Assembly: GCA_024653485.1 (NCBI GenBank) | Contig: JANLFY010000004.1 | Coordinates: 62,001 to 126,000, forward strand | Direction: 5' to 3' | From: Bacillota bacterium | GTDB taxonomy: Bacteria > Bacillota > SHA-98 > UBA4971 | Length of the DNA stretch: 64,000 nt | Part shown: piece by piece, positions 3-22,653 of the stretch | Numbering within the stretch: the first letter of the stretch is position 1 | Layout: each line of letters starts with the position of its first letter | Position numbers and translations under genes: made by a program | The notes under the pieces: generated by a model | What the model saw: only the letters and a program-made list of their open reading frames with translations | The model's database searches: none | What the model was told of the DNA's origin: nothing

Positions 3-467
3 GCGCAGGATACCGAGGACAAGAACCAGGGCAAAGCGAAGGTTTCCACAAGCGTCACTCTGGCCGTTACTCCGTCCGAAGCGGAGAAGCTGGCTCTCGC
101 CGAAGAGATGGGGAGAATACGTCTTGCGCTGCGCCCCATCGTCGCCTCCGTTGCGAAGAGTTCGGGCGTTGTCGCCCGCGATCTTTTGAGAGGGGTTAAA
201 GGTTGGTCGCCTCCCAGACCGGCAGATGAGGGCACCCCGCGGTCCGGTGCACCTGTGGTCTCCCCTGGGACGCAGTCCCAGGGACCCGCCGTGACCATAA
301 CGCGCCAGGCTCCCCCAACCCCTGTGGCGCACGGGCCGTCATCGCTTCCTCCTCAATCCGCCGGCACGGTCATTCCCATTCCCGAGCCCCAGGTGGTGGA
401 GGTCATCAAGGGATCACAAAGGACCTTTGTCTCCTTGGGTGATAGCGGGGAGGCGACCAAACAATGA
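3..467 (+). CDS. cpaB: Tad pilus assembly protein CpaB/RcpC, C-terminal part
   Basis: This is the 3' end of a gene that begins before the window; the frame is open from base 3. The first visible residues (VTLAVTPSEAEKLALAEEMG, then RIRLALRP) match the conserved core of CpaB/RcpC, the periplasmic SAF-domain partner of the Tad secretin. A long Pro/Ser-rich linker follows, then a terminal VVEVIKGSQRTFV segment typical of CpaB ends. The stop overlaps the cpaC start by four bases (ATGA), so the two are translationally coupled. Family assignment is firm from motif and neighbours; the N-terminal signal and SAF domain cannot be seen. Confidence 0.85.
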   Translation, partial: AQDTEDKNQGKAKVSTSVTLAVTPSEAEKLALAEEMGRIRLALRPIVASVAKSSGVVARDLLRGVKGWSPPRPADEGTPRSGAPVVSPGTQSQGPAVTITRQAPPTPVAHGPSSLPPQSAGTVIPIPEPQVVEVIKGSQRTFVSLGDSGEATKQ

Positions 468-2872
468 TTTTACCTTGTTACCGCAGTGGAAGGAGATCGG
501 TCAGTCTGAGAAGGTCCGCCCTCGTGGCCGTGGCTATCGCCTCGCTACTCATGGCGACCCCGGCCTCGGCCGCAAATGAAACGGTCGGCGCCTGGCAGGC
601 CCAGCCGGAGCAGGCACAAGGGCAAGGACCGACACCACAGGCGTTGCAGCCAAGCGCGGCCGTGGCGAACCGCACTTTCGCAGTGGTGGTCGGGGAGTCG
701 CGGATCCTACAGGTCAACGACCTTGTGAGAGTGGCGGTGGCCGATCCCAGTGTCGCCGATGTCGTTGTCGTGTCCAAGACAGAGGTCATAGTGAACGGGA
801 AAAAGGAGGGTCGGACCACCCTCCACGTCTGGGACGCCTCGGGTCGCTCGAGCTACAACGTCCGAGTCTGCGTCGACAACGCCGATCTCACCCGCGAGAT
901 CGAAGAGACCATCGGGATGAGCGGCGTCACCGCGAGGTTCGCCAGATCGACGCTGCTCCTCGATGGCTTCGTCGAGACCGATGGAGATTCCGAGAGGGCC
1001 GAGAGGATAGCGAAGGCCTACGCGGACAAGGTGGTCAACCTCTTGACGGTTAGGCGCCCTGCCCTCCCACCTCCGCCGCCCGCCATCGATGCCGTGGAGG
1101 TCGAGTCGGCCATCGGTGTTCAGGGCGTATCCGTACGGGTAGTCAAGGACACCGTGATCCTGGAGGGACAGGTTGAGAGCGCTCTTGACGCGGAGCGAGC
1201 CGAGAAGATCTCGAGGATCTTCACGGCCAACGTGCTGAGCTTCGTCTCGGTGAGCCAGCCTCTGCCCCCTTCCGCCACAGGTGCGAGCGAGGAGGATGGT
1301 GAGCCGGTGGCTGCCGACCAGGCCGCGCCCCAGGTTCAAGGGTCGGCTTCGGCGGGTGAGGCTGGCGGAGCGAGCGGTGAGCGCGACGTCAAGGACGGAG
1401 CGGAGAAGGGGCCCGCGCAGTCATTGGAAGAATCAGCTGGCGCATCCGAGCCCGCCGCGCGCGAGCCCTCAGCAGTGCCCGAGGAGATCGACCCCGATGC
1501 GGCGCTGCGCGACATGGTGGCGGCGGCTGTGCGGGACCCCGCCGTCGAGATCACCGTGGTCAAGGGCACGGTGCTCCTCGAAGGACTGGTGCAGAGCGAA
1601 TATGCCAAGCTGCGCGCGGAGACGGTGGCGCGGCTGTACTCTCCAAAGGTAGTGAGCATCATCCGCGTCGAGGAGGTTGCACCCGCACAAGCGGCTCCGG
1701 CCCATCAAGCGCCAAAGCCGCATCAGGAACCACAGCAGCCGGAGACGCCTGCGCCCGCGCCTGGGCCCGCGCCCGCCGCGCCCGTGCCCGCGCCTGGGCC
1801 CGGGCCTGCGCCAGAGGTCGCGCCGGAGTCGCCGGCTCAGAAGGTTGCAGCAGAAGAGCCGCGACTCGAGGACAGGGTCAGCGAGTACATCGGCGTGCCC
1901 ACCGTGAGGGTGCGGTCGGTTGACGGCAAGCTGCTCCTCGAGGGCAGCGTCGCGTCGCAGAACGAACTCGAAAGGGTCAACAAGATAGCGGGCATGTTCA
2001 GCAGAGATGTCGTGAACCTCGTTGAGATGACCGACCCCGCGCAGGTCCTGTTGCAGGTGAATGTGGTGGAGGTGAACAGGGGTTCCCTGAAGAACCTCGG
2101 TGTGACGTGGGGCGGCGTGAACGGCGAACGAATCGAGCCCGGGTCGTTCCTGTTCGGTGAGGTGAGTTTTCCGCCTCTCCCGCCCCTACCCGGTGACTTG
2201 GAGACATGGGAGGCGTGGCGGAGTCTCATTCCGAAGGGCAGCCCCGTGGCGGAGATCTGGAGACTGAGCCCTATACGCGCAGTCCTCGATCTCCTGGTGA
2301 GCCAGGATGTGGCGGAGGTGCTTGCGGCGCCGTCCCTTCTCACGCTCAGCGGCAAGCAGGCGGATTTCCTCGTGGGCGGGGAAATCCCGGTGTACGTGGG
2401 GCAGAGCGACGGGAAGATCGTGTTCGAGTGGCGTCCGTACGGCATCAAACTGACCATGCTTCCCACCGTGGATGCGCGCGGCCGCATAGTCATAGACGTC
2501 CAGCCTGAGGTGTCTTCCCTGGACTGGAACAACGCTCTCGACGTAGGGGAGGCGGTCGTCCCCGCCCTGAAGGTGAGAAGGGCTTCGACGCACCTCGTAG
2601 TGGAAGACGGCGCGACCATCGCCATCGGCGGACTGCTCCAAAGCGCTGACGTGAAGGTAGCAAAGAAAGTCCCCCTGCTCGGAGACATTCCCATCATCGG
2701 TTCGCTCTTCAAGAGCGAGGAGTTCCAGAGAGGCGAGACGGAGCTAGTCATCCTCATCACCACCAAAGTGGTGAGGGCGGGTGACGTCGTCACGCGCGAC
2801 ATGATGGTGAAGCCCGAAGGATCGCGTGCGCCGGTACCCGCGCCGGCGGCCGCGAGGGGGCCGGGGGAGTGA
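464..2872 (+). CDS. cpaC: Tad pilus outer-membrane secretin CpaC/RcpA with expanded BON-like region
   Basis: This 802-residue secretin forms the outer-membrane channel of a Tad/Flp pilus. A signal peptide ends near PASAAN (about residue 37). The N-terminal pilus-secretin domain follows (RILQVNDLVRVAVADPSVADV), and the C-terminal secretin domain covers roughly residues 520-780 (VAEVLAAPSLLTLSGKQADF, VPLLGDIPIIGSLF). Between them lie four BON-like units of about 50 residues, each centred on a V(K/R)xxxLLEGxV strand, near residues 140-200, 210-265, 345-400 and 475-525. They are separated by Pro/Ala/Gly-rich linkers. Typical CpaC proteins have one or two such units and are shorter. The gene overlaps both cpaB and cpaE. 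Confidence 0.92.
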   Translation: MILPCYRSGRRSVSLRRSALVAVAIASLLMATPASAANETVGAWQAQPEQAQGQGPTPQALQPSAAVANRTFAVVVGESRILQVNDLVRVAVADPSVADVVVVSKTEVIVNGKKEGRTTLHVWDASGRSSYNVRVCVDNADLTREIEETIGMSGVTARFARSTLLLDGFVETDGDSERAERIAKAYADKVVNLLTVRRPALPPPPPAIDAVEVESAIGVQGVSVRVVKDTVILEGQVESALDAERAEKISRIFTANVLSFVSVSQPLPPSATGASEEDGEPVAADQAAPQVQGSASAGEAGGASGERDVKDGAEKGPAQSLEESAGASEPAAREPSAVPEEIDPDAALRDMVAAAVRDPAVEITVVKGTVLLEGLVQSEYAKLRAETVARLYSPKVVSIIRVEEVAPAQAAPAHQAPKPHQEPQQPETPAPAPGPAPAAPVPAPGPGPAPEVAPESPAQKVAAEEPRLEDRVSEYIGVPTVRVRSVDGKLLLEGSVASQNELERVNKIAGMFSRDVVNLVEMTDPAQVLLQVNVVEVNRGSLKNLGVTWGGVNGERIEPGSFLFGEVSFPPLPPLPGDLETWEAWRSLIPKGSPVAEIWRLSPIRAVLDLLVSQDVAEVLAAPSLLTLSGKQADFLVGGEIPVYVGQSDGKIVFEWRPYGIKLTMLPTVDARGRIVIDVQPEVSSLDWNNALDVGEAVVPALKVRRASTHLVVEDGATIAIGGLLQSADVKVAKKVPLLGDIPIIGSLFKSEEFQRGETELVILITTKVVRAGDVVTRDMMVKPEGSRAPVPAPAAARGPGE

Positions 2873-4197
2873 CGACCGTGTCGGAGCAGAGGATCAAGAT
2901 TCTCATTGTGGACGATGTGGCCGAAACGCGGGAGAATCTGAGGAAGCTCCTGTCATTCGGACCCGGGTTCGTCGTGGCCGGGGAGGCCGAGAACGGCAAG
3001 GAAGCCATCGCCCTCGCGAAGAGGATCCGGCCGGACGTGGTCCTCATGGACATAAACATGCCTGTCATGGGCGGGATAGAGGCGACGGAGGCCGTGTCGG
3101 TGGAGGTGCCCACCACCACCGTGATAATCATTTCGGTGCAGGGAGAGTCGGAGTACCTCCGAGAGGCCATGGCGGCTGGAGCGCGCGATTACCTGATAAA
3201 GCCGTTCTCCGCCGACGATCTCATCAACACCATACGCCGGGCCTACGAGATGGACGCGAAGCGGCGCGCGAGGTTCGCCCCGGTGCCGATAGCCCAGCGC
3301 AAGACGGGAAAGATCGTGGCAGTGTTCAGCACCAAGGGCGGGGTAGGAAAGACTACCATCGCCACCAATCTCGCTGTTGAGCTCGCTAGCCACGGGCGAA
3401 AGAGCGTGGTCCTCATGGACCTCGACCTTCAGTTCGGGGACGTGGCGATCATGCTCGACTCCATCCCCATCCGCACGATAGCCGACATAGCGAAGGAGGA
3501 AGAGATCGACTCTGAGCTCGTGGAGGCGTGCCTGCTCACGCACAAGTCGGGTGTCAGGATGCTCGCGTCGCCGCTACGCCCGGAGCAGGCGGAGATAGTC
3601 ACGGCCAAGCATGTGGAGGCGATCTTGTCGCTCCTTGCCGAGAGCTATGATTTCATCGTGGTCGACATGCCTCAAGGCCTCAACGACATTACCCTGGCCG
3701 CGCTAGACGCGGCTGACAGAATCCTGCTGGTGACGACCTTGGAGCTCCCAGCCATAAAGAATGCCAGGTTGTGCCTGGAGATCATGGAAGCTCTGGGATA
3801 CGGCGAGGAAAAGGTGAGATTGGTAGTGAACCGGTCCTCGAGGGACATAGGTCTCAGCATCGAGGAAACAGAGAAGACACTCCGCAGGACCGTTGACATT
3901 CACATTCCGAGCGACGGAAGGGTGGTCGTGCCGTCCGTCAACAAGGGCGTGCCGTTCGTGACGAGCTATCCGTCGGCAAGGATATCCCAGACGATACGCG
4001 ATCTGGCGCGGGAAGTGAGCGCGGCGGATGTCGATGAAAAGCCTGCAGCCCAGCAATCGGTGAGCGTGGCCGGGGCGGGCGCGGTCGGGATTGCCGGAGC
4101 GCCGCTGGCCGTGGCGGCAGCGGACGCAGGGGGCCGCGGTGTGCGGCGTCATGCGGGCATACCCGGGCGGATCTTCAGCCTCTTCACGGGCGGGTGA
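2869..4197 (+). CDS. cpaE: Tad pilus localisation ATPase CpaE (receiver domain plus MinD/ParA ATPase)
   Basis: The protein has 442 residues and a GTG start overlapping the cpaC stop (GTGA). Residues 8-125 form a response-regulator receiver domain: acidic pair at 15-16, phosphoacceptor Asp61 in LMDINMP, and the conserved Lys in YLIKPF. Residues 147-400 form a MinD/ParA ATPase with deviant Walker A KGGVGKTT at about 156-163 and a FIVVDMPQG Walker B-like strand. CpaE proteins place the Tad machine in the cell. Many CpaE receivers are degenerate, but this one keeps the phosphorylation residues, so control by a histidine kinase is plausible. The last 40 residues are Ala/Gly-rich. Confidence 0.92.
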   Translation: MTTVSEQRIKILIVDDVAETRENLRKLLSFGPGFVVAGEAENGKEAIALAKRIRPDVVLMDINMPVMGGIEATEAVSVEVPTTTVIIISVQGESEYLREAMAAGARDYLIKPFSADDLINTIRRAYEMDAKRRARFAPVPIAQRKTGKIVAVFSTKGGVGKTTIATNLAVELASHGRKSVVLMDLDLQFGDVAIMLDSIPIRTIADIAKEEEIDSELVEACLLTHKSGVRMLASPLRPEQAEIVTAKHVEAILSLLAESYDFIVVDMPQGLNDITLAALDAADRILLVTTLELPAIKNARLCLEIMEALGYGEEKVRLVVNRSSRDIGLSIEETEKTLRRTVDIHIPSDGRVVVPSVNKGVPFVTSYPSARISQTIRDLAREVSAADVDEKPAAQQSVSVAGAGAVGIAGAPLAVAAADAGGRGVRRHAGIPGRIFSLFTGG

Positions 4198-4206
4198 AGG
4201 TGAGCC

Positions 4207-5721
4207 ATGTCTCTTCAAGCACGTCTCGAGAAGGCGCGGCTGACTCAGCAAGAGCAACAAGCGAAACAGGGCCAAACGAGGCCCGGCCAGGCAGGGGCGG
4301 CGACGAACTCGCGCCTCGGGCAGGGTCAGGCTGCCTTCCACGGCGGCGTCCAACCGCAGGACAGGGTGTTGCGCGTGCTAGAGTCCGCGCGGCTGGATGG
4401 AGCTGGGGCAGCGCAGCCTGAGCAGGCTCCCGCTGTGCCGAAGGAGGACCCGTACGCTGCGCTGAAGGAGAAGATCCACGAAAGACTCGTGAAGGAGATA
4501 GACAACGAGCTGCTGCGCAAGACCGACTCGCCGACGGACAGACAGAAGCTGGCGAGCGAGGTGGAGGCGGTGGCGTCCAAGGTGCTCGATGAGGAGCCGC
4601 TGCCACTCATCCGTTCGGAACGAGCGCAGGTGATCTCAGAGGTCATCGATGACGTGCTCGGGCTTGGGCCCATCACCCCCCTCCTCGAGGACGATTCGGT
4701 TACCGAGATAATGGTGAACGGTCCGAACAACGTGTACGTCGAGCGGAGCGGCAGGCTCGAGAGAGCGAGGGTGTGTTTCCGCAGCGCGGATCACGTCATG
4801 CACATAATCGAGAGGATCGTCTCGCCTCTGGGGCGGCGGATAGATGAGGCAAGCCCCATGGTGGACGCGAGGCTGCCGGACGGGTCGCGTGTGAACGCGA
4901 TCATACCCCCTATTTCCCTGGTCGGACCGTGCATCACCATCCGAAAGTTCGCGCGCGAGCCGTTCACCATAGACGATCTCGTGAGGTTCGGAACCCTCAC
5001 GCGGGAAATGGCGCAATTCCTTGACGCGTGCGTGAAGGCCAGGTTGAACATCGTGGTCTCGGGCGGCACAGGCAGTGGCAAGACGACGACGCTCAACGTG
5101 TTGTCGTCGTTCATACCCCACGACGAACGCATAGTCACCATCGAGGATGCGGCTGAGCTGCAGCTTCGCCAGGAGCACGTGGTTACGCTCGAAGCCAGAC
5201 CTCCGAACCTCGAGGGGAAGGGCGCCATCGCCATAAGGGACCTTGTCAGAAACGCCCTGCGTATGAGGCCCGACAGGATAGTCGTCGGCGAGGTGAGGTC
5301 AGGCGAAGCGCTGGACATGCTTCAAGCCATGAACACGGGCCACGACGGCTCCCTCACCACGGGCCATGCGAACTCCCCCCGAGACATGCTCGCGAGGCTG
5401 GAAACGATGGTGCTCATGGCGGGGATGGACTTACCGCTCAGGGCGATTCGAGAACAGATCTCGTCTGCCGTCGACCTCATAGTGCACCAGGCAAGGCTGC
5501 GCGACGGCAGCCGCAAGATCACGCACCTCACCGAGGTCCAGGGCATGGAGGGCGACGTCATTACGATGCAGGACATCTACGTTTTCGAGCAAACGGGCGT
5601 GGACGAGCAAGGCAGGGTGACCGGAAGGTTCAAGGCCACCGGAATCAGGCCGAAGTTCCTGGAGCGGTTCGAGGCGATGGGAATTCCGCTGCAACCGGGC
5701 ATGTTCGTGGATTTCCTATGA
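4207..5721 (+). CDS. cpaF: Tad secretion ATPase CpaF/TadA
   Basis: This 504-residue hexameric traffic ATPase powers Tad pilus assembly. The first 80 residues are Gln/Gly-rich and variable. The conserved all-alpha N-terminal domain follows (LVKEIDNELL), then the ATPase with Walker A GGTGSGKT at about 286-293, an Asp box (IVTIEDAAELQL) and Walker B (RPDRIVVGEVR) with the His box TGHANSPRDML. The spacing after cpaE is 9 bases and a GAAGGTGAG ribosome site precedes the ATG. Order and spacing mark it as part of the cpaBCEF-tadBC operon. Confidence 0.93.
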   Translation: MSLQARLEKARLTQQEQQAKQGQTRPGQAGAATNSRLGQGQAAFHGGVQPQDRVLRVLESARLDGAGAAQPEQAPAVPKEDPYAALKEKIHERLVKEIDNELLRKTDSPTDRQKLASEVEAVASKVLDEEPLPLIRSERAQVISEVIDDVLGLGPITPLLEDDSVTEIMVNGPNNVYVERSGRLERARVCFRSADHVMHIIERIVSPLGRRIDEASPMVDARLPDGSRVNAIIPPISLVGPCITIRKFAREPFTIDDLVRFGTLTREMAQFLDACVKARLNIVVSGGTGSGKTTTLNVLSSFIPHDERIVTIEDAAELQLRQEHVVTLEARPPNLEGKGAIAIRDLVRNALRMRPDRIVVGEVRSGEALDMLQAMNTGHDGSLTTGHANSPRDMLARLETMVLMAGMDLPLRAIREQISSAVDLIVHQARLRDGSRKITHLTEVQGMEGDVITMQDIYVFEQTGVDEQGRVTGRFKATGIRPKFLERFEAMGIPLQPGMFVDFL

Positions 5722-5764
5722 GGGACGGCTGAACGGGAAAAGCGCAAGTGAAGGAGAGCAGGTT

Positions 5765-6850
5765 ATGCCGGGCCACGTACTTGCTGCCGCGGTGTCGGCG
5801 CTCGTGTTCATCTCGGTCGCCCTTGTGGCGCACGCCATACTGCAGGCCGCCGGCGAACGGCGGTCTGGCACGTGGCGTCTCGCGCGCCTTTGGGGCGCGT
5901 CCTCGAAGACGCCAGGCGGCCGTCAGGCGGGCGGGACCGGGGGCGTCGGCGGTGCGGTCGCAGGTGGGAGTGGGAGCGGGACCGGGACCGGAGCCGCGGG
6001 GACCGGGAGCAAGGGCAGAAGACAGATCGCGAGGAGCCAGGGACAGCTCGTAGCGGCACTTCGTCCTGCCCTCGCATTCCTCGGCAAGGCGTTTGAGAGA
6101 GGCGCCTACGCGGACAAGGTAGAGCGGGAACTCGCTCGAGCGGACATTCCCCTGAGAGGGTCGGAATTCGTAGTCCTCAACCTCGTTGCCGTCCTCGCCG
6201 GGCTCGTCCTCGGTGTCATATTCACGCGGACGGTGATTGTCTCCGTGGCGCTTGGGATGGCGGGCGGGTTCCTTCCAAACATGTACATCAAGTGGAAGCA
6301 AGGCCAGAGGCTGGGAAGACTCAACGGCCAGATAGCAGACGCCCTCGCCATCATGGCAAACTCGCTGCGGGCAGGTTACAGCTTCCTGCAAGCGATGGAC
6401 ATGGTATCGCGGGAGATGTCCCGGCCGATCTCCGATGAGTTCTCCGCTGCTATGAAGGAGATGAGCCTCGGGGCCCCTACGGAGGCGGCCCTTACCTCGC
6501 TTGCGGACAGGGTGGGGAGCGAGGACCTCGAGCTCGTGGTTACAGCTGTCCTCATCCAGCGACAGGTGGGCGGGAACCTCGCGGAAGTGCTCGACAACAT
6601 AGCCCACACGATCAGAGAGCGGGTGAGGATACGCGGCGAGATCAGGACGCTCACCGCGCAGGGCAGGCTGTCCGGGATAATCATCGGGATCCTGCCCGTA
6701 GCGCTCGGGCTCCTACTCTATGCTATGAATCCAAGCTACATAATGCTGCTGTTCACCCATCCGATAGGACGGGTAATGATCGTCATGGCCGCCATCGGCG
6801 AGGCCGTTGGGGCGATGGTGATCAGGAGAATAGTCACTATCGAGGTGTAG
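5765..6850 (+). CDS. tadB: Tad inner-membrane platform protein TadB
   Basis: A 361-residue T2SSF-family inner-membrane protein that forms the pilus assembly platform with TadC. It has one N-terminal membrane segment (residues 5-25), a Gly/Thr-rich low-complexity stretch around residues 55-85 that is unusual for the family, two mid-protein membrane segments (about 135-165), the cytoplasmic T2SSF helix bundle (ADALAIMANSLRAGYSFLQA) and paired hydrophobic segments near the C-terminus. AAGGAG seven bases before the ATG supports the start. It lies 43 bases after cpaF in the same direction. Confidence 0.9.
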   Translation: MPGHVLAAAVSALVFISVALVAHAILQAAGERRSGTWRLARLWGASSKTPGGRQAGGTGGVGGAVAGGSGSGTGTGAAGTGSKGRRQIARSQGQLVAALRPALAFLGKAFERGAYADKVERELARADIPLRGSEFVVLNLVAVLAGLVLGVIFTRTVIVSVALGMAGGFLPNMYIKWKQGQRLGRLNGQIADALAIMANSLRAGYSFLQAMDMVSREMSRPISDEFSAAMKEMSLGAPTEAALTSLADRVGSEDLELVVTAVLIQRQVGGNLAEVLDNIAHTIRERVRIRGEIRTLTAQGRLSGIIIGILPVALGLLLYAMNPSYIMLLFTHPIGRVMIVMAAIGEAVGAMVIRRIVTIEV

Positions 6851-6872
6851 GGCGTAGGGGGGAAGCGGAAGA

Positions 6873-7793
6873 GTGGCTCTTCTGGTGTCATCGCTCGTGT
6901 TTGTGAGCGTAACGGCGATCGCCATGTGGTCCATGGGGATGGGTCAGCGAGAACCCACTGCGGACGAACGGCTCAAGCGCCTAGCCGTGCTCACGCGCGT
7001 TCCCAGTGAGCGCGAGAAGAAGCTGGCTCGGCCGCTCAGCGAGCGGCTCTTGGGTCCGGTGGTGCGGTTCGTCAACGATCTCATCATATCTGTCACCCCC
7101 AAACACGTCGTGGACGCGGTCAAGGAGAAGCTCGACGTTACCGGGAACCCATGGAACATGACGCCCGGCGACTACATCCTGATGCGCGTTATCACGCTTG
7201 CGATCATCCCGCTGGCCGGGTTCGGGCTTGCGCTTCGCTTGGGTCCAGGCACTGCCGCGCTGCTGGCGTTCGTGCTGGCAGCCCTTGGATGGCTCGTTCC
7301 CGAGATGATGCTACAGTCGAAGAAGAGGGATCGCGAGAAGCAGATCCGCAGGTCGCTCCCGGACGTGCTCGACCTCCTCACGGTGAGCGTTGAGGCGGGG
7401 CTGGGGTTCGACGCTGCCCTCGCGAAGGTCGTTGAGAGGAAGAAAGGGCCCCTTGCCGAGGAGTTTGCCTTCTTGCTGCAAGAGATCCGCATGGGAAAGC
7501 CAAGGAGGGACGCCCTCCGGGAGCTCTCGGAGCGCGTCAAGATCGACGACATCACGTCGTTCATAGCATCAGTCGTCCAGGCGGATCAGCTCGGGGTGAG
7601 CATAGCGAACATCCTCCGCATACAGTCGGCCCAGGTGCGAACGAAGAGGCGCCAGCAGGCGGAAGAGGCGGGCATGAAGGCTCCGATCAAGATGCTCTTC
7701 CCGCTGGTCTTCTTCATATTCCCCACGCTTTTCGTGGTGCTGCTGGGGCCGGCCATAATCCAGGTGGCGACGACGTTCATGACGACTTTCTGA
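6873..7793 (+). CDS. tadC: Tad inner-membrane platform protein TadC
   Basis: A 306-residue T2SSF-family protein and partner of TadB. It has an N-terminal membrane segment, two central segments (about residues 105-145), the conserved T2SSF sequence LPDVLDLLTVSVEAGLGFDA with FLLQEIRMGKPRRDAL, and a C-terminal FPLVFFIFPTLFVVLLGPA membrane helix, which is characteristic of TadC. The start is GTG behind GGGGGGAAGCGGAAGA. It is the last recognisable Tad gene here. No Flp pilin, TadE/F pseudopilin or prepilin peptidase is present downstream, so they must be elsewhere or upstream. Confidence 0.9.
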   Translation: MALLVSSLVFVSVTAIAMWSMGMGQREPTADERLKRLAVLTRVPSEREKKLARPLSERLLGPVVRFVNDLIISVTPKHVVDAVKEKLDVTGNPWNMTPGDYILMRVITLAIIPLAGFGLALRLGPGTAALLAFVLAALGWLVPEMMLQSKKRDREKQIRRSLPDVLDLLTVSVEAGLGFDAALAKVVERKKGPLAEEFAFLLQEIRMGKPRRDALRELSERVKIDDITSFIASVVQADQLGVSIANILRIQSAQVRTKRRQQAEEAGMKAPIKMLFPLVFFIFPTLFVVLLGPAIIQVATTFMTTF

Positions 7794-13936: not shown

Positions 13937-15700
13937 ATGGTGCGGCGGCGGACACTCCTGGGGGCGCTTGTCGGAATACTCCTGCTTGGTTTCGTAGCCC
14001 CGCCGGTTTTCGGGGACTCCCTCACCGTCTACAGACTGGAGCCATCCAGCGGATGGGTTGAACTCCCGCCGGTCAACCCGTACGCCGCGGCGATGGGGGA
14101 GGCCCCTCTACAAGGCTGGAGCAACGCTGGGTCAGTGTCATGGCCGGTGCGGGCGACCGCGACGTTCGAGCCGGACACGCAAAGGGCTGAGCTCAGCGTG
14201 CAGTTCATCCCGGTGTCCGGTGACATCCGGACCAACGCGACTAACCTCTTCATCGCTCCTCTGGGCAGGCGCCTCGAGTGGAGGATGGTCGTAACGGTGA
14301 GAAACCCCAACGACATCCCGATGAGAGACGTCAAGGTGCGGGACGAGTTCGGGCGGGCTTTTCGTGCGTCGCTTGCGGGCAAGTCGGCGGGGGAGGCCCG
14401 CATCGAGGGCGACGACCCTGCTGCCAGGTTGCCTCTTTGCCCGACGTTCGTATGGGACGTCGGGGATCTCGGCCCCGGGGAGGCCGCGAGGGCGGAAGCC
14501 AGCGTGGTGACCACCCGCGACCGTGACGGGAACATGCAGTTCTCTCGTCCTGGGATATACTCCATTGACACGGGCGCGCGCCTCACCTACACCCTCGCTG
14601 GAAAGAAGCAAGTGCGCAACGCAGGCTGCGGCAGCGTGATTGCTCGCAAGGACATGGGCGCCCTCCGCAGCGAGGGGCCGCCGTTCGACGTTGATGCCGA
14701 CCCCATTGCAGGCGGGGGCACAGGCGCGGGATCCGTCGTGCCCGTCCTGCCCCCCATAGTCGGCGACGGGCCGGACGTGCGCGCGGTCATCACGCGGGTC
14801 GCCCAGGAGGCCCAGGACGTCGGCACGCGAGACATCTCACCGTGGACGCCGATGTTCTACCTTGTCGCCGCGGGCGAGACGCCCAACATCAGTGAAGACG
14901 GGGGCAAGTTCGTGGTCCCACCGGGGGAGTACGCAGAGTGGAAGGTGACCGTGACGATCGCAAACCCCTGGAACCTTCCCGGGTGGGATCACTGGGACAT
15001 GAACCTGTACTTTGGGGCTGAGCTCTCGGTCGAGGAGATCTCGAGAACGGATCCGGTGACCGGCGACACGTTCAGCATAACCCGCGCGTCGCCCACCGAC
15101 CCGGTCCACGTCTCATGGCAGTGGTCAGGCGACCCGTCCGAGTTCCCTCCGGGCTCGCAGGCTGTGGTGGAACTCAAAGTGTACACGGCGGGGTACGCTG
15201 CCTTAGGCGAGTACGAGTTCGTAAGATCCGCAACGTTGGGGTGGACCTGGCCCCCTCACGGGTCGGGCGGAGCCTGGCTGGGCAGCATAAGCGTGGTAGC
15301 GAGCCCGACGGCGGACGTAAGCCTCAGCTCCACCCGGCAGGACTGGCGCGTGCGGAAACCCGGGACGTACGCCGCGCTCGCTACGGAGATGAGCTTCACT
15401 GGCGTGGGCAAGCTAACAGTTGACTTCTCGGGTTTTACGAACCTTGCGCAGCAGGACGGCGGGCCGGACTTCATCCGCGCGTGGTACGGGTTCGGGAACG
15501 ACCTCGCCGCGGTGGAGACCTCGGGATGGATAAGCGCGAACGACCTGAACCTGGACGCCAACTCGCGCGGTCCGATAACGCTCGACCCGTCAACCCCCGT
15601 CACGCTGAGGATGTGGTCCAAGATAGACGTGGGCGAGGAGGACATGTCGAGCGAATACGAGGATGTGGGGGTGGTAACGTTCATCGTGAGCAACAACTAG
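13937..15700 (+). CDS. Exported protein with DUF11-like units and a shared C-terminal domain
   Basis: A 587-residue secreted protein of unknown function. The ATG at 13937 has GAGGAGGG six bases upstream and opens a clear signal peptide (MVRRRTLLGALVGILLLGFV, cleavage near VFG-DS). Residues 95-200 resemble a DUF11-like beta-sandwich (MVVTVRNPNDIPMRDVKV, VWDVGDLGPGEAARAEASVV), and a second similar unit is seen around 315-420 (WKVTVTIANPWNLPGWD). The last 135 residues (from QDWRVRKPGTYAALATE to SSEYEDVGVVTFIVSNN) are clearly homologous to the C-terminal domain of the protein encoded at 16070-16780. It is the first gene of a five-gene exported-protein cluster. I do not recognise the family. Confidence 0.75.
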   Translation: MVRRRTLLGALVGILLLGFVAPPVFGDSLTVYRLEPSSGWVELPPVNPYAAAMGEAPLQGWSNAGSVSWPVRATATFEPDTQRAELSVQFIPVSGDIRTNATNLFIAPLGRRLEWRMVVTVRNPNDIPMRDVKVRDEFGRAFRASLAGKSAGEARIEGDDPAARLPLCPTFVWDVGDLGPGEAARAEASVVTTRDRDGNMQFSRPGIYSIDTGARLTYTLAGKKQVRNAGCGSVIARKDMGALRSEGPPFDVDADPIAGGGTGAGSVVPVLPPIVGDGPDVRAVITRVAQEAQDVGTRDISPWTPMFYLVAAGETPNISEDGGKFVVPPGEYAEWKVTVTIANPWNLPGWDHWDMNLYFGAELSVEEISRTDPVTGDTFSITRASPTDPVHVSWQWSGDPSEFPPGSQAVVELKVYTAGYAALGEYEFVRSATLGWTWPPHGSGGAWLGSISVVASPTADVSLSSTRQDWRVRKPGTYAALATEMSFTGVGKLTVDFSGFTNLAQQDGGPDFIRAWYGFGNDLAAVETSGWISANDLNLDANSRGPITLDPSTPVTLRMWSKIDVGEEDMSSEYEDVGVVTFIVSNN

Positions 15701-16069
15701 CGTGAGCGATGTCCGGTCTGACGAAAGAAGCACGCCTGGCGCGGGAGGCCGCTCGAAGGCGCACGTGAAAAGCCCGGTTCCACGGAAGGCGGAAACAGAC
15801 TGTGCGGTGCGGCTGCCCTGCACATCATCCGGGCGTGTCGTGAAGGCCCGTTTGAGACGCCGACCGAAGCTTGGGCATCGGGAAGGACTCGCCAAGGCAC
15901 CGTTGGACTCGGAATGGAGCGGGTGGGGCTTGGAACAAGTCCGCGCGGGCGCGGGCTCGCAGGCTATGGGACGCGAACCGCGGAGAAGCCACTCTGGAGA
16001 TGTGTAAAGAGACGCTGCTCGAGCGTCGAAAGGGTCCCAAGAAACCTACAAGGAGGTTGAATCCCGAAT
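15701..16069. other. Intergenic leader with hairpin before the second exported protein
   Basis: These 369 bases contain no recognisable gene. GACGCT and AGCGTC (16011-16027) form a 6-bp stem with a GCTCG loop 43 bases before the next start, probably in its 5' leader. An AAGGAGG site lies at 16050-16056. Confidence 0.35.
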
Positions 16070-16780
16070 ATGAAGAGGATGGTTTTGGTACTGGCGCTCA
16101 TGGCGGTGCTTCTGGTGCCCGCCGCCGCCCTGGCGTATAACCCGGGGGTGCCGCTCCCGGATGGTGCGGCTGAAGTAGAGACATGGTATCTCAACAACGC
16201 CGGGCAGTGGGTCTCGCAGGGTACCGGGAATGCCGCGGCGCTGGCACGCTGCTGGTCGAGCGGCCCCGCTAGCGGAGCGTGCAACGCAGAGAGCTGGGTG
16301 ATCGACGTCACGCACCACGCGTCGGTCGCTCAGTGGATCGACTGGTCCATAGGCGGCACGAGATGGGACTGGCGCATCAGGAAGCCCGGGACGTACGCCG
16401 CGGACTGCATCAACTTCACCATAAAGAGCAACAATGACGTGGCTGTCCAGTACGACGGCTTCGCCGATCTCGCCTACCTCGAGCAAGGCGAGGGCGTGAA
16501 GCAGACCATAGACACGTACTACTCCTACGGCGCCACGCTTGCCGAAGCCCAGTCGAGAGGCTGGGTCAGGGCGAGCGCGCTCAACGACAGCGATGACTTG
16601 CTAGAGGACAGCGCGGGCCTCCACGCGGGCCTGAACTTCAAACTCTGGAACAAGATCGTCGTTGAGAACTGCAACTCGTCCTGCGAGTACGAGGACACCG
16701 CCACGATAACCCTCGTGCTCCAGAACGTGAAGCATTGGATCGATGCCGAGTCTGGCAACTTCGCGCAGGTCCAGCAGTAG
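16070..16780 (+). CDS. Small exported protein, candidate secreted structural subunit
   Basis: A 236-residue protein with a classical signal peptide (MKRMVLVLALMAVLLVPAAA, then LAYN). About 135 C-terminal residues (WDWRIRKPGTYAADCINFTI to NSSCEYEDTATITLVLQN) match the last domain of the 13937-15700 product. Here the domain carries extra cysteines (in RCW, GACN, ADCIN, ENCNSSCEYED) that could form disulphides and that the larger paralogue lacks. It is rich in Asn, Asp and aromatic residues, with no membrane segment after the signal. Size and position suggest a secreted subunit, but this is inference. A perfect 12-bp hairpin follows the gene. Confidence 0.75.
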   Translation: MKRMVLVLALMAVLLVPAAALAYNPGVPLPDGAAEVETWYLNNAGQWVSQGTGNAAALARCWSSGPASGACNAESWVIDVTHHASVAQWIDWSIGGTRWDWRIRKPGTYAADCINFTIKSNNDVAVQYDGFADLAYLEQGEGVKQTIDTYYSYGATLAEAQSRGWVRASALNDSDDLLEDSAGLHAGLNFKLWNKIVVENCNSSCEYEDTATITLVLQNVKHWIDAESGNFAQVQQ

Positions 16781-16898
16781 CCGTCGCCGTGACGGGCGAC
16801 TCCGAGTCCCGCCCTTTGGATGAGACGAGGCCAAGCGGAGTCCTTCCTGGACGCCCTGTGTCACCTGGAAAGGTGAGCCTTGCGCGATACACGGGAAG

Positions 16899-16927
16899 AA
16901 CAGGGGTGGCGGCCTGCCACCCCTGTT
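16899..16927. repeat. Perfect 12-bp inverted repeat between two cluster genes
   Basis: AACAGGGGTGGC, a 5-base loop (GGCCT), then GCCACCCCTGTT. No T-run follows on either strand. It may be a processing, stability or attenuation element, or a weak terminator, between the small exported subunit and the chaperone-like gene. Confidence 0.75.
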
Positions 16928-16950
16928 CGGACCAGAGAGGAGATAGACCC

Positions 16951-18756
16951 ATGATGGTTCCTCATTCATCGAGTCGTGACTGCCCTGGCGGACTCAGTCA
17001 TGAGAGAAGCAGGGCTCGCCGCATAATGCTCAATGTGGTTCTTTCGTCGATCGTCGCCTCAATGCTCGTGGGTTGCCTGGTCGGCACGGCGCGAGCCCAG
17101 GTGTCCATCAGCCTCACGCCGCTCCTGATCGAGCTTGCCGGGGCGCCGGGCGAAACCAAGTCCTTCAACATCCTGCTCGTGAACGAGAGCAAGGCCGCGA
17201 CCGCGCATTTCCGGGTGTTCGCGACAGACGTGATACAGAGATCGAACGGCGACTACCGCGTCGTCGAGCAGGGCGAGTCTGAGTACTCGTGTGCCAGGTG
17301 GATCAAGCTGTCCAGGGAGGAGGCGACGCTGGGCCCGGGCGAAGCGCTCTCCGTCGACGGCAAGCTCGCTATCCCGAGAGCTGTCTATGGCGGGCGGTAC
17401 GCGGCGGTAGTGTTCGAACTCGCCCCTGAGAAGAGGAAGGACGGGGAGGAGGTCTTTGCCTCCGCCGAGTTCGTGCAGAGGTTTGCCACCGTCATCGAGG
17501 TCTCGATCCCCGCGCCCAGGGTGCGAAAGGCCCTCAGCGTGTCGGGGTTCAGCGTGCGGGCCGCCGCGGAGAACCCGAGATATGCAGCGGCGTACGGCAA
17601 CGATGCGCTGATCCTCGTGGGTGAGGTGAGGAACGAAGGGAACACGCACGTCTTCGCGCGCGGGTCCCTGACCCTCAGGGACGGCTCGGGCAAGCGCCTG
17701 CGTCAAATACCGCTTGGGTCTGGGCGCGGCCTGGTGCTTCCTGAGGCAACCGTGAACCTGGTCTCGGTGCTTCCTTCCGGCCTTGCGCCGGGCAACTACA
17801 TCGCGGACATTTCCGTGAAGTACGGCGGCATGCGGCCGGCGCTCGCGAAGGTGCCTTTCACGGTGTCTTCGAGCGGAGCTGAGACGAGAGGCGCTGGAGG
17901 CGAGACGAAGCTGGCTCCGTTCAGCGTGGAGCCGGCGAGCCTTGACCTCACGTACCCTGCCGGCGCCGTGGCGGCCAGGTCGATCGTGGTCAAGAACGAA
18001 TCCGACGTGCCCCTCCATGTCGAGGGCAAGGCGCTGCCGCTCGCTTATGACGAGGAGGGCGAGCTCGTGCAGGACGAGTCCACGCTCGCGGCCACGCCCT
18101 CCAAGTGGAGCTGCGCGGGCTGGATCGAGCTCAAGCCCTCCAGCATGGACATCCGGCCGGGCGGCCAGCAGGTCGTGCGCGTCACCATAAGCATTCCGAG
18201 GGACCAGGCCGGCGGCAGGTACGCGAACCTCGTGTTCACCGCCACGCCTTCGGGAGAAGGAGGCGGCGCGGGGCGCGGCGAGGCGGGCAGCCGCGCGAGC
18301 GCGGAGACCCCGTCGCCTCGAGAGACTCCGGCGTGGGCCGGTGAAGCCGGCGCGGTGGTGTCCCTTACCGTTGGCAAGCAAGTGGAGAAGATCGCGGAGC
18401 TGTCAGAGCTCAGGATCGAGGACGGCGGTCCTTCCGTAGGTTTGATATTCAGCACGGTGTTCAAGAACACCGGGACCACCCACGTCAAGCCGCAGGTCAC
18501 GTTCGGGATAAAGAGGCATGTCGTCCCGGAATCCGTCCCCGGGGTGGAATACGTCGGCCCCGGATCGTGGGAAGACGTGGATTCGGTAGACCTGGGCGAG
18601 CTGGAGAACACGGTCCTCCCGGGAGGAACGAGGCTGCTTCGCGCGGGGTACGCGCGCGCTCTCGAGTCGGGGAGGTACATGGTCGAGGTAACCGTTAGGT
18701 ACGGCGGCAAGGCACCGCTATATGTGTCGAGGGAGTTCGAGGTACGGCAGCCTTGA
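16951..18756 (+). CDS. Exported protein with duplicated DUF916/fimbrial-chaperone-like beta-sandwich units
   Basis: A 601-residue exported protein starting at ATG 16951 behind GAGAGGAGA; a second in-frame ATG at 17026 begins the hydrophobic signal directly. Residues 26-50 form the signal. It contains both an LVGC lipobox-like site and an ARAQ signal-peptidase I site, so lipidation is uncertain. Two homologous halves follow. Each has a strand block like ISLTPLLIELAGAPGETKSF, then S(C)A(R/G)WI(K/E)L, a GPGE or RPGG turn, and an (Y/A)GGRYA(A/N)(V/L)VF segment, near residues 95-155 and 375-435. The pattern resembles DUF916/COG1470 and fimbrial chaperone folds that bind surface proteins. A paralogue-like Ig unit follows each half. 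Confidence 0.72.
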   Translation: MMVPHSSSRDCPGGLSHERSRARRIMLNVVLSSIVASMLVGCLVGTARAQVSISLTPLLIELAGAPGETKSFNILLVNESKAATAHFRVFATDVIQRSNGDYRVVEQGESEYSCARWIKLSREEATLGPGEALSVDGKLAIPRAVYGGRYAAVVFELAPEKRKDGEEVFASAEFVQRFATVIEVSIPAPRVRKALSVSGFSVRAAAENPRYAAAYGNDALILVGEVRNEGNTHVFARGSLTLRDGSGKRLRQIPLGSGRGLVLPEATVNLVSVLPSGLAPGNYIADISVKYGGMRPALAKVPFTVSSSGAETRGAGGETKLAPFSVEPASLDLTYPAGAVAARSIVVKNESDVPLHVEGKALPLAYDEEGELVQDESTLAATPSKWSCAGWIELKPSSMDIRPGGQQVVRVTISIPRDQAGGRYANLVFTATPSGEGGGAGRGEAGSRASAETPSPRETPAWAGEAGAVVSLTVGKQVEKIAELSELRIEDGGPSVGLIFSTVFKNTGTTHVKPQVTFGIKRHVVPESVPGVEYVGPGSWEDVDSVDLGELENTVLPGGTRLLRAGYARALESGRYMVEVTVRYGGKAPLYVSREFEVRQP

Positions 18757-18831
18757 CGGCCGCGCGCATCTTACCGGCGGGGCGCGTGAGCCCTGGCCGA
18801 GTCTAGGCTGATTTGCGAGGAGGAATCACGG

Positions 18832-20073
18832 ATGAATGGGTCAAGACGTTCCGTGCGGGGCAGGCAGACCCTACCCGGGAGACTGGCACTAGGGCTCGCG
18901 CTGGCGCTTGCACTGGCGGTCATCACGATGGCCCTGCCGCAGGCATCGATGGCTCAAGAGCCTCTGGTGAGCAACGTGTTCGACGGGGCGGACATCCTGA
19001 GCGTCCTGCGCGACGTCTCCGCGCAGACCGGGGTGAACATCATCGCCGACGCAACCGTCCAGGGGTGGGTCACGGTCGAGCTCGACGAGGTTCCCTTGGA
19101 GAAGGCGCTGGAGATGATAGTCGTGCCGCTCGGGTACACGTTCGTCAGGGTGGGGGATTACTACATCGTCGGATCGGCTGACGTCAAGAACCCGAGCTTC
19201 CCGCTGTTGACAACCACCGAAGTCATCAAGCTCAAGTACGCGAAGGCGGAGAACGCCGCCAAGCTGCTCTCGGACTTCTTCGCTCCATACGTCAAGGTAG
19301 GCGCGGCCGATAACGTCCTGGTAGTCACGGGCTCCGCGGGCCTCGTGCGACGCATCATGGCCGACATCGAGAGAATAGACAGACCGGCGCCCCAGGTCAT
19401 GCTGGAAGCGCTCGTCATGGAGATATCGTCTGACAGCGGGAAGTCCTTCGGTGCCGACTGGCGTTACGAGGGCAGCGGCGGAGAGTCGGATCCGACCGTG
19501 CCTGCCTCCGGCTTCGTGGACTTCGTGTCGGGTATATGGGGAGCGAAGTACAACGTGGCAGGAGGCCTCGAGCACATCATCGCGTCAATGAAGGTCCTTC
19601 TGGATTCGGGGAAGGCCGAGATACACGCGACTCCGAGGATCGCCACGATCGATGGCGAGCGCGCGGAGATCTTCCTCGGCAAGGACAAGTACTTCACGGT
19701 GACGACGGGTACCAACAGCGACACCACAACAAGGCTAGAGTCGATACGAACGGGCATTTCGCTCAAGTTCACGCCGCGGGTGTCGGAGACCGGCGAGATC
19801 CTGGTGAAGATCGAGCCGGAAGTGAGCGACGCGGTGGAGACCGCGGACGGCCTGCCCATCGTGAACAGGCGCACGGCCTCGACATCGATCAGGGTGAAGA
19901 ACGGCGAGACCATAGTCATCGGAGGCCTCAAGCTGAAGTCGGAGTATGAGGCGAAGACAAAGGTGCCGCTGCTCGGCGACCTACCCATCCTCGGTCTCCT
20001 CTTCAGCAGCACGAGGAGGGCGTCCACCGAGACCGAGGTCGTGATATTCATAACGCCGACGATCATGGAATAG
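18832..20073 (+). CDS. Short secretin-like protein (STN plus secretin domain)
   Basis: A 413-residue exported protein with a signal peptide (cleavage near SMAQ-EP). Residues 45-115 form an STN-type domain (ILSVLRDVSAQTGVNIIADA), residues 120-190 a NolW/N1-like domain (VIKLKYAKAENAAKLLSDFF), and residues 200-410 a secretin core (MLEALVMEISSDSGKSFGAD, IHATPRIATIDGERAEI, VPLLGDLPILGLLFSS). It belongs to the GspD/PilQ superfamily but is shorter than classical members and distinct from CpaC in this window. GAGGAGG precedes the ATG by nine bases. With its neighbours it suggests a second outer-membrane channel dedicated to this cluster. Confidence 0.87.
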   Translation: MNGSRRSVRGRQTLPGRLALGLALALALAVITMALPQASMAQEPLVSNVFDGADILSVLRDVSAQTGVNIIADATVQGWVTVELDEVPLEKALEMIVVPLGYTFVRVGDYYIVGSADVKNPSFPLLTTTEVIKLKYAKAENAAKLLSDFFAPYVKVGAADNVLVVTGSAGLVRRIMADIERIDRPAPQVMLEALVMEISSDSGKSFGADWRYEGSGGESDPTVPASGFVDFVSGIWGAKYNVAGGLEHIIASMKVLLDSGKAEIHATPRIATIDGERAEIFLGKDKYFTVTTGTNSDTTTRLESIRTGISLKFTPRVSETGEILVKIEPEVSDAVETADGLPIVNRRTASTSIRVKNGETIVIGGLKLKSEYEAKTKVPLLGDLPILGLLFSSTRRASTETEVVIFITPTIME

Positions 20074-20348
20074 GGCGCAGAGATCGTCCGATGAGCACAG
20101 ACCACGAGCCTGGGCTCGCGGCTTGGAGGTCGCGCGTCCAGGTCGGCTCGGGTCGGAAGGGCCGAGGGCGGGCAACGGCCGGGCTGCCGGGCGAGGTCTC
20201 GTCGTCCGGCCTTGCCGGTTTCTGGGGCCGAGAGTTCCGCCGAGAGTTCCAGGGGCAGGGGCCCGCCGTCCGCCGTTCCCGCGCGGTCCCGGCAACCCGG
20301 ACAAGGTCGGTCAAATGCTGTCTTGAGCGAAGGAAGGGGGAAGAGGGC

Positions 20349-21392
20349 GTGACTGGGATGAAGGTCTGTCGCGGACCCGGTCGCAAGCCTAGCGATGCGC
20401 GCGGTTTTTCGTTGGCCGGCGGAGGACGATGTCCTCTCAATCCGATCAAGATCGCGGCCCGGCGGCTCGCGTCGGCCATGCTCCTGATGATGCTCGCGGT
20501 AGTGCTATCCGGCGTAGGGCTATCCAACGTGGCCGCGGCAGGCAACGATTACAGCTTCATGGATCCATTCGGGTTCGCTGACGCGCGCCTCATGGGCATG
20601 GGTTATTCGTACGTGGCGGTGTGGGACGCGCCCAACCCTCTCTACTCGAACCCTGCCTCGTTTGGACTCGGCAAGGACTCGCTCGTGTTTTCGCTCGGAG
20701 GTGGCTGGACGGACGGCACCGACCCGGACAGCTTCAAGTTCATCGCCGTATCCGACGTGGAACGAGGTGCGGGAGCGGGCGGGTTCGCATGGGGTGGGTA
20801 CCAGCTGCACGAGGGTGACACACGACTATCAGGGAACACGTTCAATTACTCCGTGGGCAAGAGCCTCGCCGGTTGGGGGGCCCTCGGTCTCGGATTGCGC
20901 TACCTCCGTGGCGACGCAAGCGAAGCTGGCGGCGGAGGTGGCGGTGGCGAGAGCGTCGTGAGGTGGAGGGGCCTTGCCATGGACGCCGGCGTCGTGCTGA
21001 AGTACAGCGCGTTTTCGCTCGGGGTGATCGCCCGCGACGTCAACACGACACGACTTGCCTTCGACGACGGCACGACCGTGAGCGTGCGGCCGAGCTACTC
21101 CGCGGGCCTGAGCTTGCGTCCCGCGTCCGGGGCGGTGCTTGCGTTCGACGCCCACCGCGTGGGGCAAGACGACGCAAGCCAAGAGATATATACCGGTGGC
21201 TTCGAAGGGTGGCTCACGCCGCACATCGCGCTGCGGGGCGGGATCATTCTGGGGGACGGTGAGGTCCCGGAGGCCAGGGCCTTCACCGGTGGGATAGGCT
21301 TGCGATTCGGTGACTTCGAGATGTCTTACGCGCTCCTCACGAGCGACGAACAGATAAGGAGACAGTGCATCACGCTCACGAGACGGTTCTAG
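20349..21392 (+). CDS. Predicted outer-membrane beta-barrel protein (PorV/UPF0164-like)
   Basis: A protein of about 347 residues with a GTG start at 20349 (AGGGGG eight bases upstream; ATG 20358 is an alternative). A signal anchor or peptide at about 37-60 leads to the mature region, beginning GNDYSFMDPFGFADARLMGM, then AVWDAPNPLYSNPASFG. This AN(P)xx(L)xxNPA-type start is typical of the PorV/TraF/UPF0164 barrel family. Alternating strands with Gly-rich turns follow, and the protein ends CITLTRRF, with the C-terminal Phe used as an outer-membrane insertion signal. It implies a diderm envelope. It is the last gene of the exported-protein cluster. Confidence 0.72.
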   Translation: MTGMKVCRGPGRKPSDARGFSLAGGGRCPLNPIKIAARRLASAMLLMMLAVVLSGVGLSNVAAAGNDYSFMDPFGFADARLMGMGYSYVAVWDAPNPLYSNPASFGLGKDSLVFSLGGGWTDGTDPDSFKFIAVSDVERGAGAGGFAWGGYQLHEGDTRLSGNTFNYSVGKSLAGWGALGLGLRYLRGDASEAGGGGGGGESVVRWRGLAMDAGVVLKYSAFSLGVIARDVNTTRLAFDDGTTVSVRPSYSAGLSLRPASGAVLAFDAHRVGQDDASQEIYTGGFEGWLTPHIALRGGIILGDGEVPEARAFTGGIGLRFGDFEMSYALLTSDEQIRRQCITLTRRF

Positions 21393-21594: not shown

Positions 21595-22653
21595 TCACGT
21601 CTTGGACGAGATGCCGTGCCTCTTGAGCTTCTTGTACAACCCGGACCGCGATATGTTGAGCATCTTCGCCGCCTTCGTCTTGTTGTTCCCCGAAGCGCGG
21701 AGCGCTGCCACGATGATCGCGCCTTCCTGAGCAGCGAGAGACTCGCCGAGCCCCTGTCCTCTGAATCCTCTGGAGGCGTCAAAGTGTGCACCAACTGCTC
21801 CCCAGAAGTACACCGGGATGTGCTCCGGGCGAATCTCGTCGCCATCCGTGAGGTTTAGGGCTCGCTCGAGTACGTTCTCGAGCTCGCGGAGGTTTCCAGG
21901 CCAATGGTAGCTCAGGAAGGCGTCCATGACAGCGGGGTGGACCCCTGTCACGGACGTGTGGCACAGCCTGTTCAACTTCTTCAGGAAGCAATCAACGAGC
22001 TCCGGCAGGTCCTCCTTCCTCTCCCTGAGCGGCGGGATAGTTATTGTGACCACGTCCAGACGGTAGTACAGATCCTCCCGAAACTCCCCTGTCGACACCA
22101 TCTTGCGGAGGTCCTTGTTCGTCGCAGCGATCAGCCTGGCGTCCACTGGAACCTCTTTGGTGCCTCCCAACCGCTCTACGGCGCGCTCCTGGATCGCACG
22201 CAGGACTTTCGCCTGGAGAACGAGGGGCATGTCTCCGATCTCATCGAGGAAGATGGTGCCTCCTGAGGCCTGCTCGAACTTGCCGGGCTTGCCGCTCCGA
22301 AGAGCCCCAGTGAATGCCCCCTCCTCGTAACCGAAGAGTTCCGATTCCATCAGCGTCTCGGGAACGGCGGCGCAGTTCACCACGACGAACGGGCCGCTTG
22401 CCCGACCGCTCGCGTCGTGTATGGCGCGGGCGAATACCTCCTTGCCGACACCGGTCTCGCCGAGCAGCAAGACGTTGGAACCACCGCGCGCCGCTCGCCG
22501 GGCAAGGTCGCGGGCCGCGGCCACGCCGGGGCTGCGGCCGATGATGGCCGAGAAGGGATCGCGTTCGGCCCCATGAAGGCGGGCGCTGTTCCAGTCTTGC
22601 CTGTGAACGTGTCTGCCCCCCGGGGCAATCGTGCCGTGCATCACGGGTGTCAT
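21595..22653 (-). CDS. Sigma-54-dependent transcriptional activator without a sensory domain
   Basis: A 352-residue bacterial enhancer-binding protein. Residues 37-270 are the AAA+ domain, with Walker A GETGVGKE, the sigma-54 contact loop GAFTGA, Walker [13 protein letters not shown], and the RPLREAR-like [15 protein letters not shown] Fis-type helix-turn-helix ends the protein ([20 protein letters not shown]). Only about 35 non-conserved residues precede the AAA+ core, so there is no receiver, PAS, GAF or V4R sensor. Control would have to come from a partner protein, as with PspF. AGAGAGGTG lies upstream of the ATG. It converges on the exported-protein cluster and could regulate it. Confidence 0.88.

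Follow-up and report, generated by a model that had tools for sequence, protein, structure and literature searches.

Five genes for exported and outer-membrane proteins lie in tandem

The window, that is, the whole stretch of 64,000 nucleotides that was analysed, contains five genes designated here A to E, which follow one another on one strand (Table 1). A previous sequence-only reading had described them as two exported proteins with a common C-terminal domain, a protein with duplicated chaperone-like units, a short secretin, and an outer-membrane barrel. All five frames proved to be open on the plus strand at about the positions first assigned (13937-21392), and the description of each product held in the comparisons given below, although the match of the barrel stays below the curated cut-off. 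The start of C is probably at 16951, because the ATG there follows GAGAGGAG, is in frame, and gives an N-terminus common to G002 and G004; E probably starts at 20358. A scan for promoters and terminators gave no signal exceeding that of shuffled sequence.

Table 1. Genes of the cluster, with positions in the window.
Gene	Product	Position	Strand	Features and basis
A	Large exported subunit, 587 aa	13937..15700	+	N-terminal domains of unknown family and a putative pilin-like C-terminal domain common to B; ATG after GAGGAGG
B	Small exported subunit, 236 aa	16070..16780	+	AF2 model, Foldseek
C	Tandem two-unit (four Ig-like domains) WxLIP/PapD-like putative chaperone	about 16951..18756	+	Duplication, AF2, Foldseek, PF06030 in relatives
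D	Short secretin, 413 aa (N0/STN-like, N1, and secretin domains)	18832..20073	+	Pfam
E	PorV/PorQ-like outer-membrane barrel	about 20358..21392	+	PorV/PorQ profile match below curated cut-off

A Tad locus lies upstream of the cluster in the window (464-7793) and encodes an RcpA-like secretin with BON domains, a CpaE-like response-regulator/ParA fusion, TadA, and two T2SSF proteins. A gene for a sigma-54-type activator (21595-22653, minus strand) faces the cluster and is kept beside it only in genera g1 and g2. Sigma-54 promoters for this adjacent activator were considered and rejected, as the matches were no better than chance.

The cluster is inherited as a unit

Homologues were sought in relatives, in named genomes, and in 398 genomes of the phylum, and their neighbourhoods were then inspected. 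About 27 genomes, ranging from members of the same genus to many other families of the phylum, have A-B-C-D(-E) in this order on one strand, with flanking genes that differ between them. Because the same order recurs in this many genomes, it is more than chance. B was found in 25/398 genomes of the phylum sample, corresponding to 16/266 genera. The B search nearly always returned exactly two matches per genome, namely B and the adjacent A, which adjoins B upstream in nearly every genome. Several genomes have overlapping C and D genes. B, C, and D also co-diverge (Mantel r of 0.81 for B/C, 0.70 for B/D, and 0.92 for C/D, with 0/2000 permutations reaching the observed value), a correlation that shared vertical descent could also produce. 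The homologues are thus not scattered, and the conserved co-occurrence expected from the sequence-only reading was observed. We conclude that the five genes are a widely co-inherited unit; export of their products as a unit is well supported.

Exceptions to the A-B-C-D order were confined to contig ends, two genomes (G186 and G210), and a WOR-3 locus. G186 and G210 carry a second B-C-D copy without A in tandem. Such tandem extra copies (L061, 9478-14301; L062, 10001-15776) are followed by a gene for an S41 C-terminal processing peptidase, with no barrel. In the WOR-3 genome A-B-C is present with D not nearby, and this locus adjoins a gene with a T9SS sorting tail (L063, 6461-8041). The named hosts are mostly uncultured Bacillota; the single-contig carriers G315, G200, and G375 are probably Limnochordia isolates. 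Limnochordia possess an outer membrane (PMC11456536).

A and B share a domain, and the model of B resembles pilus subunits

The C-terminal domains of A and B are 34% identical over 130 aa (E 5e-22). Neither protein had a Pfam or NCBIfam match, and none that was meaningful appeared across 24 B members. WxL domains were not matched in A or in any of the 24 B members, nor did A or B match an enzyme-like domain in Pfam or the T9SS tail model. A sequence profile of B gave nothing significant against the PDB. On the other hand, when the AF2 model of B (pLDDT 89.4) was compared with the PDB using Foldseek, the top 15 matches were nearly all subunits of chaperone-usher pili (probability 0.95-1.00), the structures matched including CS17, CsuA/B, FimF, Caf1, and the PapG pilin domain, and the TLP-1 (9ikk) and TasA (8aur) fibres stood at ranks 17-18. 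Most of the proteins matched are filament subunits linked by strand exchange. The pilin-like fold of B is suggestive only, given weak E-values, 1.5e-3 being the best, and modest query-normalised TM-scores (about 0.3-0.35).

Most A proteins end directly after the last strand of the C-terminal domain, just as pilins end right after the last strand of the pilin domain. Since A ends after the pilin-like domain while B carries an N-terminal extension, A may be a tip and B a shaft subunit, by analogy with FimH/FimA and with the large and small WxL proteins. At two loci (L034, 10490-11422; L035, 13345-14226), the middle domain of A also occurs downstream of the cluster as a separate exported protein.

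C is a duplicated relative of WxLIP

Residues 31-282 of C match its second half (25%, E 1.5e-15), and each half corresponds to a two-domain Ig-like unit. The AF2 model of C scored 86.6. Its top Foldseek matches, mostly long multi-Ig proteins (ciliary, complement), had tiny TM-scores and were discounted, and matches of single units were used instead; these included WxLIP of Enterococcus faecium (TMt 0.53-0.55) and the CfaA chaperone (6k73_B; TMt 0.56). PF06030 (DUF916, the WxLIP peptidoglycan-binding domain) was found in 8/24 C members (best 8e-8), the window copy being without a match, and the sequence profile of C matched EfmWxLIP1 at 2.5e-5. No match to DUF3324 was found in C, and no PapD family of Pfam matched the window copy or the 24 members. 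C ends in a soluble Ig-like domain and has no C-terminal transmembrane helix. Judged from sequence profiles and models, C is detectably related to WxLIP.

Both units of the AF2 model contain low-confidence F-G loops (residues about 133-150 and 409-437 of the modelled chain). In PapD-like chaperones, the F-G loop region is the strand donor. For WxLIP, the equivalent hairpin has been predicted to complete the sandwich fold of the WxL domain (PMC10599100).

This relationship raises the alternative of a WxL-like surface complex in diderms that forms no fibre: C would escort A and B through D, and the two would remain together on the cell surface as a non-polymeric adhesive complex. The A-B-C genes have the exact layout of WxL clusters, that is, one large and one small protein plus one interacting protein (PMC10599100). 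Nevertheless, A and B lack the WxL domain, C lacks the transmembrane helix of WxLIP, and B resembles fibre subunits in the structure search, so we regard this alternative as rather unlikely, albeit the strongest of those considered.

D is a secretin independent of type II, type IV, and Tad motors, in genomes with an outer membrane

D matched Pfam Secretin (3.7e-44) and Secretin_N, with a weak N0/STN match. In a phylogenetic tree, the D orthologues grouped apart from the genome's own RcpA and PilQ, both of which were on long branches. The cluster encodes no motor, platform, or pseudopilin and has no energy source of its own. The possibility was considered that D assists a type II, type IV, or Tad system as an auxiliary secretin and that A, B, and C are cargo or bystanders, given the Tad locus upstream of the cluster in the window and the type IV pilus locus that adjoins it in G027. 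However, the Tad locus of the window and the type IV pilus locus of its genome each have their own secretin, and the cluster moves without such neighbours. A T2SSE ATPase over the cut-off is absent from three carriers (G315, G375, and G224), of which G315 and G375 are single-contig genomes, and G375, G224, and G055 have no secretin other than D. It follows that D serves none of the type II, type IV, and Tad machines as their secretin and is independent of their motors; the auxiliary role was rejected and is largely refuted.

Omp85 was detected in 25/25 cluster-positive genomes compared with 11/35 negatives (p 1.4e-8, an optimistic value because the genomes are related), so the cluster is restricted to genomes bearing an outer membrane. 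The outer-membrane usher (PF00577) was found in 0/23 cluster-positive genomes, with the E. coli control positive.

D is conserved beside A-C, and secretins in type II secretion export folded proteins. The cluster might secrete soluble enzymes or adhesins through the secretin, and C might be a general holdase of the periplasm. The fibre-subunit-like fold suggested for B, the lack of enzyme-like domains in A and B, and the lack of an energy source in the cluster all make this improbable.

Each of three further loci (L114, 6020-12674; L117, 4081-10348; L118, 7882-14387) pairs a secretin with a giant exported protein (1315-1704 aa). These loci belong to G315, a carrier lacking T2SSE ATPases, and to the window's own genome, in which the frame of the secretin is split.

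E is the least conserved part

E matched PorV/PorQ at 29-35 bits (5.6e-8 to 1.3e-8), which does not reach the NCBIfam cut-off of 90 bits. It ends in Phe, as do almost all of its orthologues. G315 has a separate PorV gene (92.7 bits), and a related PorV-family gene in this genome also matches FilD weakly. E follows D in most genomes. No barrel follows D in G153 and G226, an unrelated small barrel takes the place of E in G055, G027, and L068, and a PorV-like barrel was recognised by eye in G200, G315, and G375. E is thus the least conserved part of the cluster.

The likeness of E to PorV/PorQ, together with the common C-terminal domain of A and B and the T9SS tail encoded beside the WOR-3 locus, would fit T9SS-like sorting, in which the C-terminal domain of A and B would be a sorting signal and E would deliver both proteins. 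On the contrary, E is not universal and D nearly so, A and B did not match the T9SS tail model, and SprA_N of the type IX translocon was found in 0/23 genomes, a weak test because the control genome was silent too. We consider such sorting very improbable.

A second, divergent type of chaperone-secretin cluster

A second, divergent C was found beside or near a D-like secretin in three genomes: G031 (L040), G006 (L048), and G315 (L119). These divergent clusters (L040, 3721-10987; L048, 1325-8601; L119, 5211-10723) also contain a regulator and small exported subunits. L040 and L048 encode a barrel-like protein of 435-441 aa, and their small subunits end in Y-x-G-x-x-x-V-T-like strands. The divergent C and D genes of L119 overlap. 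A Halanaerobiales locus (L064) joins A-B-C of the first type to D of the second type.

C-like chaperones, mostly of a single unit, were also seen beside small exported proteins at L041, L042, L044-L047, and L051. Several of these loci encode a very large exported protein (834-1737 aa), possibly an usher-like partner; that of L042 has NEW3/SdrD-like/CarboxypepD_reg repeats.

A chaperone-secretin pathway for surface fibres is proposed

The sequence-only reading had taken the parts (subunits, a chaperone-like protein, a channel, and a barrel) for an assembly pathway, and with the conserved co-occurrence this is still the best reading. Specifically, we propose, with a probability of roughly 0.5, that diderm Firmicutes use the cluster to build surface fibres by a chaperone-secretin pathway. 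A, B, and C would be exported by Sec, the signal peptides of A and B being read from the sequence. In the periplasm, C would bind the incomplete Ig-like domains of A and B, presumably with its flexible F-G loops as donors of a beta strand, and would pass both proteins to D, an unpowered outer-membrane channel that would work with no cytoplasmic motor. Strand exchange between subunits would power growth of a fibre leaving through D, with B as the shaft and A as the tip by analogy. E may help to anchor or pass subunits and would be replaceable or lost. The WOR-3 locus with A-B-C but no D nearby, and the genomes missing E, are points against a fibre pathway.

More tentatively, at somewhat less than even odds, D stands in the usher's place, such that this unpowered secretin receives strand-complemented subunits from a duplicated WxLIP/PapD-like chaperone. 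Such a pathway would link WxL complexes with chaperone-usher pili and may be a relic of a diderm Firmicutes ancestor. Secretins are not known to catalyse strand exchange as ushers do, and the well-studied bacterial secretins operate with an energised inner-membrane machine. Here, a chaperone and its apparent clients are inherited together with secretin D, and some of the carriers have no T2SSE motor. If the proposal is true, a secretin can serve as the exit for fibres built by strand complementation, WxL clusters and chaperone-usher pili are two branches of one chaperone-subunit principle, and the system bears on the loss of the outer membrane in monoderm Firmicutes. Single-contig genomes carry the cluster, which makes the proposal testable if cultured members, probably Limnochordia, exist.

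Comparison with known systems

In the literature searched, from which subscription journals and preprints were absent, we found no published description of this cluster and no relevant publication on motorless or chaperone-linked secretins. D belongs to the same superfamily as the secretins of type II, type IV pilus, and Tad systems, but the cluster lacks their motor, platform, and pseudopilin, and three hosts lack the ATPase. E matches PorV_fam and so resembles PorV/PorQ and the FilD-type FadL barrels of putative pilus systems, but it scores below the curated cut-off, and the type IX translocon was not detected in the weak test above. In the TasA/TapA fibres of Bacillus, Firmicute subunits are linked through donor-strand complementation, and a chaperone-like helper takes part (PMC10151520). 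The structure matches of B include TasA and TLP-1, whereas the TasA system of Bacillus is monoderm without an outer-membrane channel and has no sequence match to B.

The A-B-C triad resembles two named systems. Chaperone-usher pili, including the archaic Csu and alternative CFA/I types, have the subunit fold nearest to the model of B, chaperone units of two Ig-like domains, a large subunit with a C-terminal pilin-like domain, and no ATPase; here, no usher was found, a secretin takes the outer-membrane place, and Pfam matches to PapD or pilins are missing. The WxL clusters of Lactobacillales/Bacillales (WxLIP being DUF916-DUF3324) likewise have a large and small exported pair with a common C-terminal domain and an Ig-like partner. 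In the present cluster, C is duplicated, a secretin and an outer-membrane barrel are added, and the hosts carry Omp85. Because WxL domains, DUF3324, the membrane helix, and the usher are missing, the cluster lies outside both systems. The view of the sequence-only reading that it matches no named system therefore stands with regard to membership, but not with regard to likeness, as the A-B-C triad resembles both.
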